The translations under genes were made by a program, and so were the position numbers. Below are positions 7,923-11,167 of a DNA stretch of 24,220 bases, one piece after another. Source of the stretch: a virus; the IMG/VR virus record IMGVR_UViG_3300044729_002766, positions 1 through 24,220 of that record; one strand, given 5' to 3'. Position 1 is the stretch's first letter, and each line of letters starts with the position of its first letter. The notes under the pieces were generated by a model, which had not been told where the DNA came from, made no database searches, and saw only the letters and a program-made list of their open reading frames with translations.

Positions 7923-8876
7923 TTACACAGATGCAAAACTGTCGGCTTGAATGATCTCGTAGTGCACGAGACCGCTTGCTCCGCAAACAGCAGATCCAAG
8001 ATAGACTCCAGCAACCGCGTCGTTACGGTACGCATTCAGGACCAGACTGCCGTCGGTTCCGTAGTTAGACAAGTTCGGGAAGTCGAACGGTCCAGCACCA
8101 GTCAGCGGGAACGCAAATGCAGTGTAGCTAGACGTGTCTAGATCGATTGTCATTGTGTTCGCTGTGACTGCCTTAATCCGGCTGATTTTGCCGCTAGCTT
8201 GGACCATGCCAAACTGTGGGGCAACAGCAAGATAAATCATCTGTCCGACCTTGTAACCATGGTCAACCGATGTGGTGATCACTGCATCAGCAGCTCGGCT
8301 GATGTTCGTAATCAGGCAGCTTTGAGGTTGCCAGATCCCAGGAAACAGAATTTTGCGGAATTGCACAGCGGTAGCCGGACCACTAAATGGAGCTGACGAA
8401 TTCAACCCGTTGAGGCTGAAATTGAAATCGTCAATTTTAGTGATCTGGAAATACATGCCTGCGATTTGCAGCATGCCGGTGCTATTGCTAAGCAGAACCT
8501 GATCGCCAGTCAGCAACTCGTGCGCAACCGCACAGGTTACAACCGCCGGGTTAGCACGGCTAATTGCTGTGCCAACTTTGACAGGTCCGAGCGCGCTCCA
8601 CTCAGGATTGTAGTAACTGATGCCAGTTCCGACCAGAGCTGTGATGAAAGATTTTTGGTCGTTAGAGGCAACTCCAACGGTCAGCATTGCGCTGCCGTTT
8701 GGCATGTTGCGGTTCCAAAACGCCTCTTTTGTGCTTGTAGCACCTGTCCAGATGTCGCCTGAGTCGTTGCCTTGATAATACAGGCGCACGATGTCAGGTT
8801 GACCGGCAAACGGAAGATTTTTTGGCAGGCCGTCAGCAACAAAGCTGCCAGCAGCGATTTGAGATAGAATAGCCAT
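7923..8876 (-). CDS. Virion protein with FCCH-like beta domains, gene next to the capsid gene (317 aa)
   Basis: GGGAGG lies 8 nt before ATG 8874-8876, favouring this start over one 16 codons upstream that would overlap the capsid gene. Residues 1-105 (MAILSQIAAGSFVADG, then RLYYQGNDSGDIWTG) are unique; residues about 110-170 and 195-255 are two beta domains with TGDQVLL and VGQMIYL elements. The last 60 residues end SLVLNAYRND... The central and C-terminal parts align with the 204-aa-class gene downstream. The gene starts 14 nt after the capsid stop, so a capsid decoration or head-stabilising role is plausible. Ordinary phage virion protein otherwise. Confidence 0.75.
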   Translation of the reverse strand: MAILSQIAAGSFVADGLPKNLPFAGQPDIVRLYYQGNDSGDIWTGATSTKEAFWNRNMPNGSAMLTVGVASNDQKSFITALVGTGISYYNPEWSALGPVKVGTAISRANPAVVTCAVAHELLTGDQVLLSNSTGMLQIAGMYFQITKIDDFNFSLNGLNSSAPFSGPATAVQFRKILFPGIWQPQSCLITNISRAADAVITTSVDHGYKVGQMIYLAVAPQFGMVQASGKISRIKAVTANTMTIDLDTSSYTAFAFPLTGAGPFDFPNLSNYGTDGSLVLNAYRNDAVAGVYLGSAVCGASGLVHYEIIQADSFASV

Positions 8877-8890
8877 TTCAAATCCCTCCC

Positions 8891-9551: not shown

Positions 9552-10288
9552 CGAGTGCTGTTACTTTCCGGGAACCACCCGTACTGACCACTTGCGTGGC
9601 GGGGAAACCTCTTCGGATCTCCCTCTATAGGTTTCCCTATAGAGCAGACTATCGCTTCACCCTTGCGGGTGCCACTAGACTTAGTCGTTGCGGCTGTACA
9701 TCCATGCTTAGTTTTCATATGCTGTAGCGGCATTAGAAAAGAGCCATTATGACGGACGCGGAATGGGCATATTTTGCTGGCATCTTGGATGGAGAAGGAA
9801 GCATTTACGCCTCGGCCTCCGTTCCAAGTAAACAACCCAGTGGGAAAGTTTACGTCTGTTGCCAAACCACACTGACGGTGGTTAACAGTGACCATAGGCT
9901 GATCGATTGGATCGATGAGCGGTTGATAGGAAACACTGCTGAATACACTCCTGCGCAGACCCCAAAGAACGCTAGAAAGCGAGTTTTTAAGTGGTACTGC
10001 AACGGAGATAATATGGTGGCCGCTCTGCAAGGAGCTTTGCCATTCCTGGTCGTCAAAAAGCGTCAGGCTGAGTTGATGCTGGAGTTGCGAGCTACCTTCC
10101 AGGCTGGACGCGGCAGCAAAGCCGTGACCGACGAGGAGAGAGCTCATCGCGAGCATCTTGTACAACTCATTAAAGCTGAAAATCAGCGCTGACATATGGA
10201 CACTTGCCTCTGGTTACCATGCGCCTAGGCGGCGTTTAGGCTTTCCAAGTAATCACTAGTAGTTTTAAGCAGGCATACCAAATTTTTT
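9552..10288 (-). ncRNA. Group I self-splicing intron in the major capsid gene (737 nt)
   Basis: Pairing by eye gives the full core. P1: exon AGCAGGU (10295-10289) with GCCUGCU (10274-10268), including the required U-G at the 5' splice site. P10: first exon-2 bases AUACC (9551-9547) with GGUAU (10279-10275), directly next to the P1 strand. P3: CUACUAG (10262-10256) with CUAGUGG (9678-9672). P4: ACUUG (10250-10246) with CAAGU (10206-10202). P5: GCCUA with UAGGC (10241-10237, 10227-10223). P6: GUCCAU (10201-10196) with AUGGAU (9705-9700). P7: GACUA (9686-9682) with UAGUC (9651-9647). P8: CACCC/GGGUG (9671-9667, 9662-9658) closed by GCAA. P9: 9-bp stem (9644-9636, 9631-9623) with GAAA loop. The intron ends in G (9552). 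Order and junctions fit known group I topology. Splicing activity is inferred, not observed. Confidence 0.93.
9749..10192 (+). CDS. LAGLIDADG homing endonuclease, antisense within the group I intron (147 aa)
   Basis: The 147-aa protein has a single LAGLIDADG-type motif at residues 8-19 (YFAGILDGEGSI) with the catalytic acidic residues in place. The following beta strands (VYVCCQTTLTVVNSD) and WIDERLIG fit the usual core, and a Lys/Arg-rich C-terminus follows (LPFLVVKKRQAELMLEL). One motif per chain means it would act as a homodimer cutting an intron-less capsid gene at the junction CAGGT/ATACC. It lies on the plus strand, opposite to the capsid gene and intron, inside the P6 loop: P6 arms are at 9700-9705 and 10196-10201, and the stop codon (10190-10192) is 3 nt from an arm. 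It therefore needs its own plus-strand transcript; I see no convincing promoter. A weak SD (GAAAAGAG) precedes the ATG. Confidence 0.9.
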   Translation: MTDAEWAYFAGILDGEGSIYASASVPSKQPSGKVYVCCQTTLTVVNSDHRLIDWIDERLIGNTAEYTPAQTPKNARKRVFKWYCNGDNMVAALQGALPFLVVKKRQAELMLELRATFQAGRGSKAVTDEERAHREHLVQLIKAENQR

Positions 10289-10596
10289 ACCTGCTCGTTG
10301 AGGAGCACGGATTGACCGTAGTAACGAATACGTGCATCGACGAATTCGTCTGTCTGCACCGCAGGAGCCGGGATCGTCCCGTTCTGGGGCAAAGGTTGTT
10401 TGACCACTGGCAGGTTGTCGAAACGAACCATACGCAGGGTGTTACCGCTGTTCATCGGAAGCGAAAAACGCTTTACCGGGAACATGTGAATCAGGTCGGC
10501 TTCGGGTGTGGCCAGAATGTAATCTGACAACGCCTGTTGCACCGCTGGCGGCATGTTCAGAGTGGTCGTTGGACCGCTCAATGTAGAGACTGTCAT
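10289..10596 (-). CDS. Major capsid protein, exon 1 (residues 1-102 plus two bases of codon 103)
   Basis: The exon encodes MTVSTLSGPTTTLNMPP through YYGQSVLLNEQ and ends in GU, the first two bases of the Val103 codon finished by exon 2. Read through without splicing it gains 20 unrelated residues and stops at 10225. The N-terminal segment LIHMFPVKRFSLPMNSGNTL and the LLNEQV end resemble the start of N4-gp56-type major capsid proteins. No clear Shine-Dalgarno sequence precedes the ATG, which is odd for the most abundant virion protein; a CUAGA/UCUAG inverted repeat lies about 15-35 nt upstream. Splicing is required for any intact capsid subunit, so this gene depends on the intron working. Confidence 0.85.
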
Positions 10597-10846
10597 GTTG
10601 TCTACGAACTAGAGGTTGTTACTTCTAGGACTTGCGAGGTCTCTCGTACGCAGGGACTGGGTTGGTGACTCCCGATACACCGATGGAGGGCTGAGCTCCG
10701 GTACAGCTATCTAAACTGTATGTAGTAAGGCTTTTATTGGAAAGTGCGGGCCGCCATGGGGAAGGAGCACCCCGACCCGCCCCAGGATGTTTGCACAGGC
10801 GCGATATACCCATTTAGACGACAATGTGGAGCCTACGGAGGTCTAT
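10597..10846. other. Non-coding gap between the capsid gene and a plus-strand gene, with a G4/C4 hairpin
   Basis: These 250 nt hold no convincing gene. They contain the capsid leader on the minus strand and the leader of the plus-strand 106-aa gene. A hairpin of GGGG (10758-10761) and CCCC (10770-10773) with an 8-nt loop is visible. A 62-codon minus-strand frame (10625-10813) exists but lacks a ribosome-binding site. The region is the natural place for a capsid promoter and for a promoter of the divergent gene, but I find no consensus match. Confidence 0.4.
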
Positions 10847-11167
10847 ATGGCCACTTTGGATATCTATCCTCCCGTTGCGCTTTACGTCGCAGGCAGGTTC
10901 GCTCACTTACCCCGTAAGGGGCATGTCCAGGACTACGCCATCGCGATGAATCTTAACGAAGAGTCTCTGCATCACTACGCGGTCGAGCGTGCCCTATACA
11001 GTCCTGGCGACGTGATCCGCTCTTGCGATTTGCAATTAGCGATGAGTGATGACATTGATGAATGGGTTGCCCGCATCGATGACAATGCTCATGAGATCGA
11101 TATGCAAATTCAAAGGCTAGCTCATGCCTACAAGATGGGCTTGCCGTGTAACATCTTTCTAGGATAG
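10847..11167 (+). CDS. Plus-strand accessory (moron-like) protein of unknown function (106 aa)
   Basis: GGAGG five bases before ATG 10847-10849 marks the start; a longer frame from 10787 lacks an SD. The 106-aa protein starts MATLDIYPPVALYVAGRF and is acidic in its second half (MSDDIDEWVARIDDNAHEID), mostly alpha-helical, with no signal peptide or known motif. It is the only clear non-endonuclease gene on the plus strand inside the leftward structural module, and it meets the 70-aa minus-strand gene tail to tail with 9 nt of overlap (11159-11167). Opposite orientation inside a late operon is typical of morons, which are separately expressed and often alter the host or exclude other phages. 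That role is only inferred. Confidence 0.7.
   Translation: MATLDIYPPVALYVAGRFAHLPRKGHVQDYAIAMNLNEESLHHYAVERALYSPGDVIRSCDLQLAMSDDIDEWVARIDDNAHEIDMQIQRLAHAYKMGLPCNIFLG

Follow-up and report, generated by a model that had tools for sequence, protein, structure and literature searches.

The DNA analysed here, referred to below as the window, is a 24,220-base virus record of IMG/VR and is itself a fragment. The minus-strand frames at 10596–10225 and 10195–8891 are the two halves of a single protein, the major capsid protein (MCP), and the MCP gene is interrupted by a predicted group I intron of 737 nt (9552–10288, minus strand), which in turn encloses a putative 147-aa homing-endonuclease gene on the plus strand (9749–10192). 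Exon 1 (10596–10289, minus strand) carries codons 1–102 and two bases of codon 103 and was assigned from its open reading frame and the profile match of the joined protein, while exon 2 (9551–8891, minus strand) was assigned from the joined frame and a gapless alignment to intronless relatives. A second plus-strand ORF of 126 aa (10787–11167) lies between the capsid and portal genes, inside the minus-strand structural block. A match to the S4-Bacteroidia leader at 8849–8884 was below threshold and was set aside.

Excision of 10288–9552 results in a continuous MCP of 322 aa, which matches phrog_1357 ("major head protein") with E 7.3e-24 over residues 10–320, i.e., nearly its full length, against 0.0082 for exon 1 alone and 8.7e-16 for the exon-2 ORF alone. 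A protein of exactly this length had been proposed in an earlier, sequence-only reading of the locus, and the exon junction predicted there also reappears in relatives that have no intron at this place: the L004 and L005 proteins, 37–38% identical, align without any gap across it. Comparison of the L011-type MCP with cultured phages gave no match, and hence no isolate of the L011 clade can be named.

The splice sites and the intron fold obey the rules of group I introns. Exon 1 ends in U, and its last seven bases (AGCAGGU, 10295–10289) form P1 with the internal guide GCCUGCU (10268–10274), so that the splice site is marked by a U·G pair; the adjoining GGUAU (10275–10279) directly abuts P1 and pairs with the start of exon 2 (AUACC, 9551–9547) in a P10 of 5 bp without a gap, and the intron is closed by a terminal G. 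Further inside, all on the minus strand, the 5′ strand of P3 (CUACUAG, 10256–10262) finds its partner in CUAGUGG (9678–9672), the P4–P5 domain occupies 10202–10250 (ACUU/AAGU or CUUG/CAAG, and GCCU/AGGC), and the P6 strands (10201–10196 and 9705–9700) flank the endonuclease ORF. The 3′ part of the catalytic core (9647–9686), which is also where the partial RF00028 match and the match to covariance model R1 fall, consists of P7 (GACUA, 9686–9682, with UAGUC, 9651–9647) and, between the P7 strands, of P8 (CACCC/GGGUG) and the second strand of P3. It is followed by the P9 hairpin CUCUAUAGG/CCUAUAGAG (9623–9644), identified by helix comparison. Note that the C at 10206 can be used by P4 or by P5, not by both, which either leaves P4 as ACUU/AAGU or shortens P5 by one pair; the group I assignment is independent of this choice.

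Comparison of eight related introns demonstrated a conserved core of P3, P4, P6, P7 and P8 with covariation. The pairs were kept in 55/56 cases for P3, 38/40 for P7, 38/38 for P8 and 54/54 for P9 (95–100% across the helices), despite seven strand variants each of P1, P3 and P9, six of P8 and four of P7. When strands were exchanged between introns, pairing was clearly worse for P1, P3, P5, P6, P7 and P9 (for P3, 225/378 against the native 55/56); this control is uninformative for P4, which is almost invariant, and for P8, where comparable swaps were scarce. Seven relatives, with the window left out, served to build a covariance model, which had a single match in the 24 kb, at 9736–9644 on the minus strand (E 0.0014), and an automatic boundary finder returned identical intron ends. 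The general Rfam model performed less well: RF00028 matched the 3′ half only, with 18.8 bits against a gathering score of 50, probably because of the 444-nt ORF in the P6 loop. The ORF-less family member L098 was matched over the whole model with 31.1 bits (E 1.8e-6), still under the cut-off, and the absence of any group I match for L004–L007, L010–L013 and one 206-nt intron reflects the sensitivity limit of Rfam rather than absence of such introns. The capsid intron of this phage is confirmed, as far as comparative sequence analysis can do so, as a group I intron with exact ends at 10288–9552. The late transcript would fold, guanosine would attack after the exon U, and the exons would be joined into the capsid mRNA. 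It follows that virion yield would depend on splicing, provided that this MCP is the sole capsid gene.

The plus-strand ORF takes up 444 of the 737 nt (60% of the intron) on the strand opposite to the MCP gene. A profile of the ORF and its relatives, compared with solved structures, matched I-MsoI (1m5x) with E 1.6e-9 and I-CreI with about 1e-6; the similarity to I-MsoI extends across the domain and includes a single motif (AYFAGILDGEGSI). An acidic motif residue, E16 in DGEG, and a later lysine, K103 in FLVVKKRQAEL, are both kept in two relatives (L010 and L011), and we take them to correspond to D20 and K98 of I-CreI. The ORF also matches phrog_5046 (E 1.1e-19), which PHROG labels HNH; an HNH identity was rejected in view of the I-MsoI/I-CreI profile match. 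The AlphaFold model of the protein (pLDDT 52) is too weak for testing the fold. By these profile matches, the intron ORF is predicted to be an I-MsoI/I-CreI-type single-motif LAGLIDADG endonuclease. I-MsoI and I-CreI are homodimeric single-motif proteins of the same length class; their genes, however, lie in 23S rRNA introns of algal chloroplasts, whereas the window protein is encoded antisense in a phage capsid intron.

A scan of IMG/VR for the endonuclease returned 80 loci, with homologues 27–47% identical, and among the distinct copies lying within MCP gaps, 57 were antisense and 7 sense to the capsid gene. It might be argued that the ORF is only a by-product of coding and RNA constraints, in agreement with the consensus scan, which recognised no promoter for the antisense gene; with a 147-aa match to endonucleases of the I-MsoI type and 57 distinct homologues in the same orientation, this is hardly credible. 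A transcript of the plus strand, separate from the capsid mRNA, would then produce the endonuclease, whose homodimer would cut, at this site, capsid alleles lacking the intron; the intron would then be copied in during repair. Members or relatives of this endonuclease group were also noticed in other settings. In L006 (3424–4000) an antisense LAGLIDADG ORF is located in the P9-side loop instead of P6, which suggests a separate antisense acquisition; in L071 (2400–2879) and L083 (2405–2857) endonuclease relatives stand outside introns, directly upstream of uninterrupted MCP genes; and in the 108-kb contig L012 a relative lies between tail-like genes, so that the family is not limited to capsid genes.

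Exons were mapped in 218 MCP loci by chaining followed by splice-aware alignment; endonuclease homology was part of how these loci were selected, and they are related to one another; the counts given here therefore describe a clade and not a frequency. Core-bearing introns were found at about 35 positions of the MCP gene in the relatives, with a maximum of five core-bearing introns and one mini-intron (see below) in a single gene (L118), and some 145 of the 218 loci had no insertion at all. The codon position of the window intron is occupied in 22 loci, the window included, and the intron at this position is therefore read, from these alignments, as a widespread mobile intron. It could still be proposed that the capsid gene is broken here, by an intron that is dead or by faulty assembly, and that another gene makes the capsid, and a second capsid gene could indeed lie elsewhere, the record being a fragment. 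This is very improbable: the identical intron is present in two further metagenome contigs from other samples, every helix is intact, the conserved capsid protein is kept in both exons, and 21 other loci carry an insertion at the same site. Three features are read directly from the sequence of this element: its group I architecture is intact, its removal restores the capsid frame exactly, and its antisense LAGLIDADG gene in P6 is intact. As a whole, it is best explained as a mobile group I intron residing in the MCP gene, with a probability that we put at about 0.93.

Such a layout has a precedent. The capsid intron of LittleE (Omegavirus, Cluster J) is group I-like, carries a bottom-strand LAGLIDADG gene, and was shown to be spliced by RT-PCR and N-terminal protein sequencing (PMC3706429). 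In LittleE as in the window, therefore, the MCP intron contains a LAGLIDADG gene that runs opposite to the capsid gene, and the antisense-endonuclease arrangement in capsid introns is already known. At the same time, LittleE is an unrelated phage with an unrelated host, its endonuclease can be aligned to that of the window over 19 residues only, and its intron is not matched by the window-family covariance model and scores 30.7 bits with RF00028, likewise under the cut-off of 50. Several group I introns per MCP gene have also been described in crAss-like phages (PMC7886860); these are different phages, and an antisense endonuclease, a mini-intron or a tag is not described in the available part of that account. 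The statement of the sequence-only reading that introns in structural genes are uncommon can be kept for phages in general, but not for this group, with its approximately 35 occupied MCP positions, nor in view of the published LittleE and crAss-like cases. The details of that reading that were checked held, while two features escaped it: the antisense LAGLIDADG gene and the C-terminus of the unspliced product, which resembles a tag.

The latter arises as follows. The frame of unspliced exon 1 enters the intron for 21 codons and ends at a TAG stop (10227–10225), giving a read-through product of 123 aa (10225–10596, minus strand) that terminates in KNLVCLLKTTSDYLESLNAA-stop. An incomplete capsid protein thus ends ..SDYLESLNAA, with an exposed C-terminal Ala-Ala-COOH. 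The tmRNA (ssrA) tag marks incomplete proteins with a C-terminal Leu/Val-Ala-Ala, and ssrA-type Ala-Ala-COOH ends are recognised by ClpXP. The MCP introns likewise place Ala-Ala at the C-terminus of incomplete proteins; the difference is that their tag is encoded by the intron, or out of frame by exon 2, and the ssrA tag by tmRNA. By itself, the Ala-Ala-stop of the window is one observation. In the family, an in-frame Ala-Ala-stop occurs in 34 of 79 core-bearing introns that are read through for four codons or more, compared with a background of 6/5192 out-of-frame stops in MCP genes and 2/204 in the other two frames of the same introns. Among core-bearing introns without an upstream mini-intron, 33/65 are also without the tag, and read-through of the T4 nrdB intron gives no Ala-Ala tag. 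LittleE (L337) and BAKA, whose tail-gene intron (L338) has 156 bp in common with that of LittleE, show the tag as well, their unspliced frames ending ..SVATAAA-stop and ..SDDLAAAAA-stop, respectively; neither this tag nor mini-introns are reported in the LittleE paper (PMC3706429).

The mini-introns were found only in relatives and are absent from the window. They comprise 41 distinct inserts of 31–68 nt at four neighbouring positions of the MCP gene (carriers include L010, L103, L108, L111, L118, L126, L134, L158, L241, L245, L249–L254 and L289), and this length is far too small for a catalytic core. Nevertheless, all 41 start after U, end in G, and form a P1 of 6–9 bp with U·G and an abutting P10 of at least 4 bp. 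Compensatory changes occur both in P1 (UUCGGU/GCCGAA, UUUGGU/GCCAAA, UACGGU/GCCGUA, GCUGCAU/GUGCAGC, GCUGCGU/GCGCAG) and in P10 (ACAG/CUGU versus ACUG/CAGU). Chance pairing was ruled out by two controls: shuffled inserts equalled the observed score in 0–0.25% of trials each, and inserts swapped between different exon ends scored at least 10 in 5% of cases, compared with 22/22 for the native combinations. In length and in interrupting the frame, the inserts do resemble translational bypass signals such as that of T4 gene 60. This explanation is improbable and was rejected on the covariation of P1 and P10, the terminal G, present in every insert together with the initial U, and the codon split in phase 2 at one mini site; a core-bearing intron downstream of each insert also speaks against it.

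This last relationship was consistent throughout. Every one of the 41 minis has a core-bearing intron downstream in the same gene, separated by 21–168 nt of exon, and in two scans with a mini-only pattern, all 26 MCP loci that could be judged had an intron of core size downstream; the chance expectation for 26/26 is about 2e-5 if 66% of genes bear introns, which is an upper bound, and shared ancestry weakens this figure. In L241, for example, a mini of 41 nt is followed by an intron of 242 nt. The simplest reading is that the core of the next intron would remove both itself and the mini, although mini removal may depend on some other factor. Group I cores that excise a short core-less intron located elsewhere have been engineered as spliceozymes, in which P10 helps (PMC4094466); there the ribozyme acts in trans and itself provides the guide, whereas the natural minis would be spliced in cis with a guide of their own. 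The minis may have been spread by co-conversion during homing of the neighbouring intron. Endonuclease-bearing introns in L146, L149 and L162 occupy a codon where other phages have minis, a hint that minis could have arisen through core loss. At a mini-intron site there are also introns of 976 nt (L013, about 1973–2948) and 953 nt (L248, at residue 112); that of L013 has a sense double-motif LAGLIDADG ORF, a guide about 24 nt before its 3′ end, and no core by model R1. Both may be introns that lack a core and carry an endonuclease of their own.

The minis are especially rich in the tag: 35/41 end in Ala-Ala and five of the remaining six in Val-Ala, and some of their ends (NEYALLAAA, DYAYRLAA) are close to the ..ENYALAA of ssrA. 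In the family, Ala-Ala is written with 14 and 17 codon/stop combinations at 4–38 codons from the exon, and this variety together with the variable distance argues for selection on the peptide and not on one RNA motif. Moreover, with X-type minis, which shift the frame, the tag lies within exon 2 in a frame other than that of the capsid protein (13/19 against 1/66 mini-less genes, p 5e-10), and the tag is rare in a core-bearing intron directly behind a mini (2/41 against 32/65 others, p 5e-7), although both p-values overstate independence, as relatives share ancestry. The window follows this rule of exclusion, with a tag inside the intron and no mini.

These data bear on the question of whether the introns are simply ordinary mobile group I introns, with the Ala-Ala of the window due to chance and the family pattern due to shared RNA ancestry. 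The Ala-Ala end is confined to about 40% of the core-bearing introns whose read-through spans four codons or more, which agrees with this simpler account, as does a core sequence common to many full introns in the same frame, e.g., ..SLIDLELLAA. It does not, however, accommodate the high Ala-Ala and Val-Ala share of minis that have no core, the several codon/stop combinations at variable distance, the X-type tag coded out of frame in exon 2, the mutual exclusion of mini and full-intron tags, or the tags of LittleE and BAKA, and on balance we consider it rather unlikely. The introns of this phage group probably mark capsid fragments that are translated from unspliced RNA as targets for degradation, as judged from these sequence patterns. 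A ribosome entering the unspliced intron of the window would produce the 123-aa fragment, its ssrA-like C-terminus would be recognised by ClpXP-type proteases, and fragments that poison assembly would be cleared; in many relatives, the tag would be supplied instead by the upstream mini of 31–68 nt, which would have its own P1 and P10 and borrow the core of the next intron. A broader interpretation, to which we incline with somewhat less assurance, is that the capsid introns act as splicing quality control, either through an intron-encoded degron or through an upstream degron/guide mini that shares the main ribozyme.

The intron itself thus adds to a known kind, and the novelty, as far as found, lies in the tag and in the core-less mini-introns of the family; no description of such a tag or of natural core-less group I introns was found in the open-access literature, as far as its incomplete coverage goes. 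Annotation tools overlook the system: the exons become stray ORFs, the Rfam scores fall short of the threshold, and the endonuclease receives an HNH label. If the reading of the minis is true, the core-less group I introns of 31–68 nt, each standing beside a core-bearing intron, would be natural counterparts of the engineered spliceozymes and would offer a simple example from bacteria in which several introns share one ribozyme. A built-in degradation tag, if true, would address the problem that ribosomes start before splicing is completed, and would explain how phages can afford to carry introns in the structural genes that they express most.
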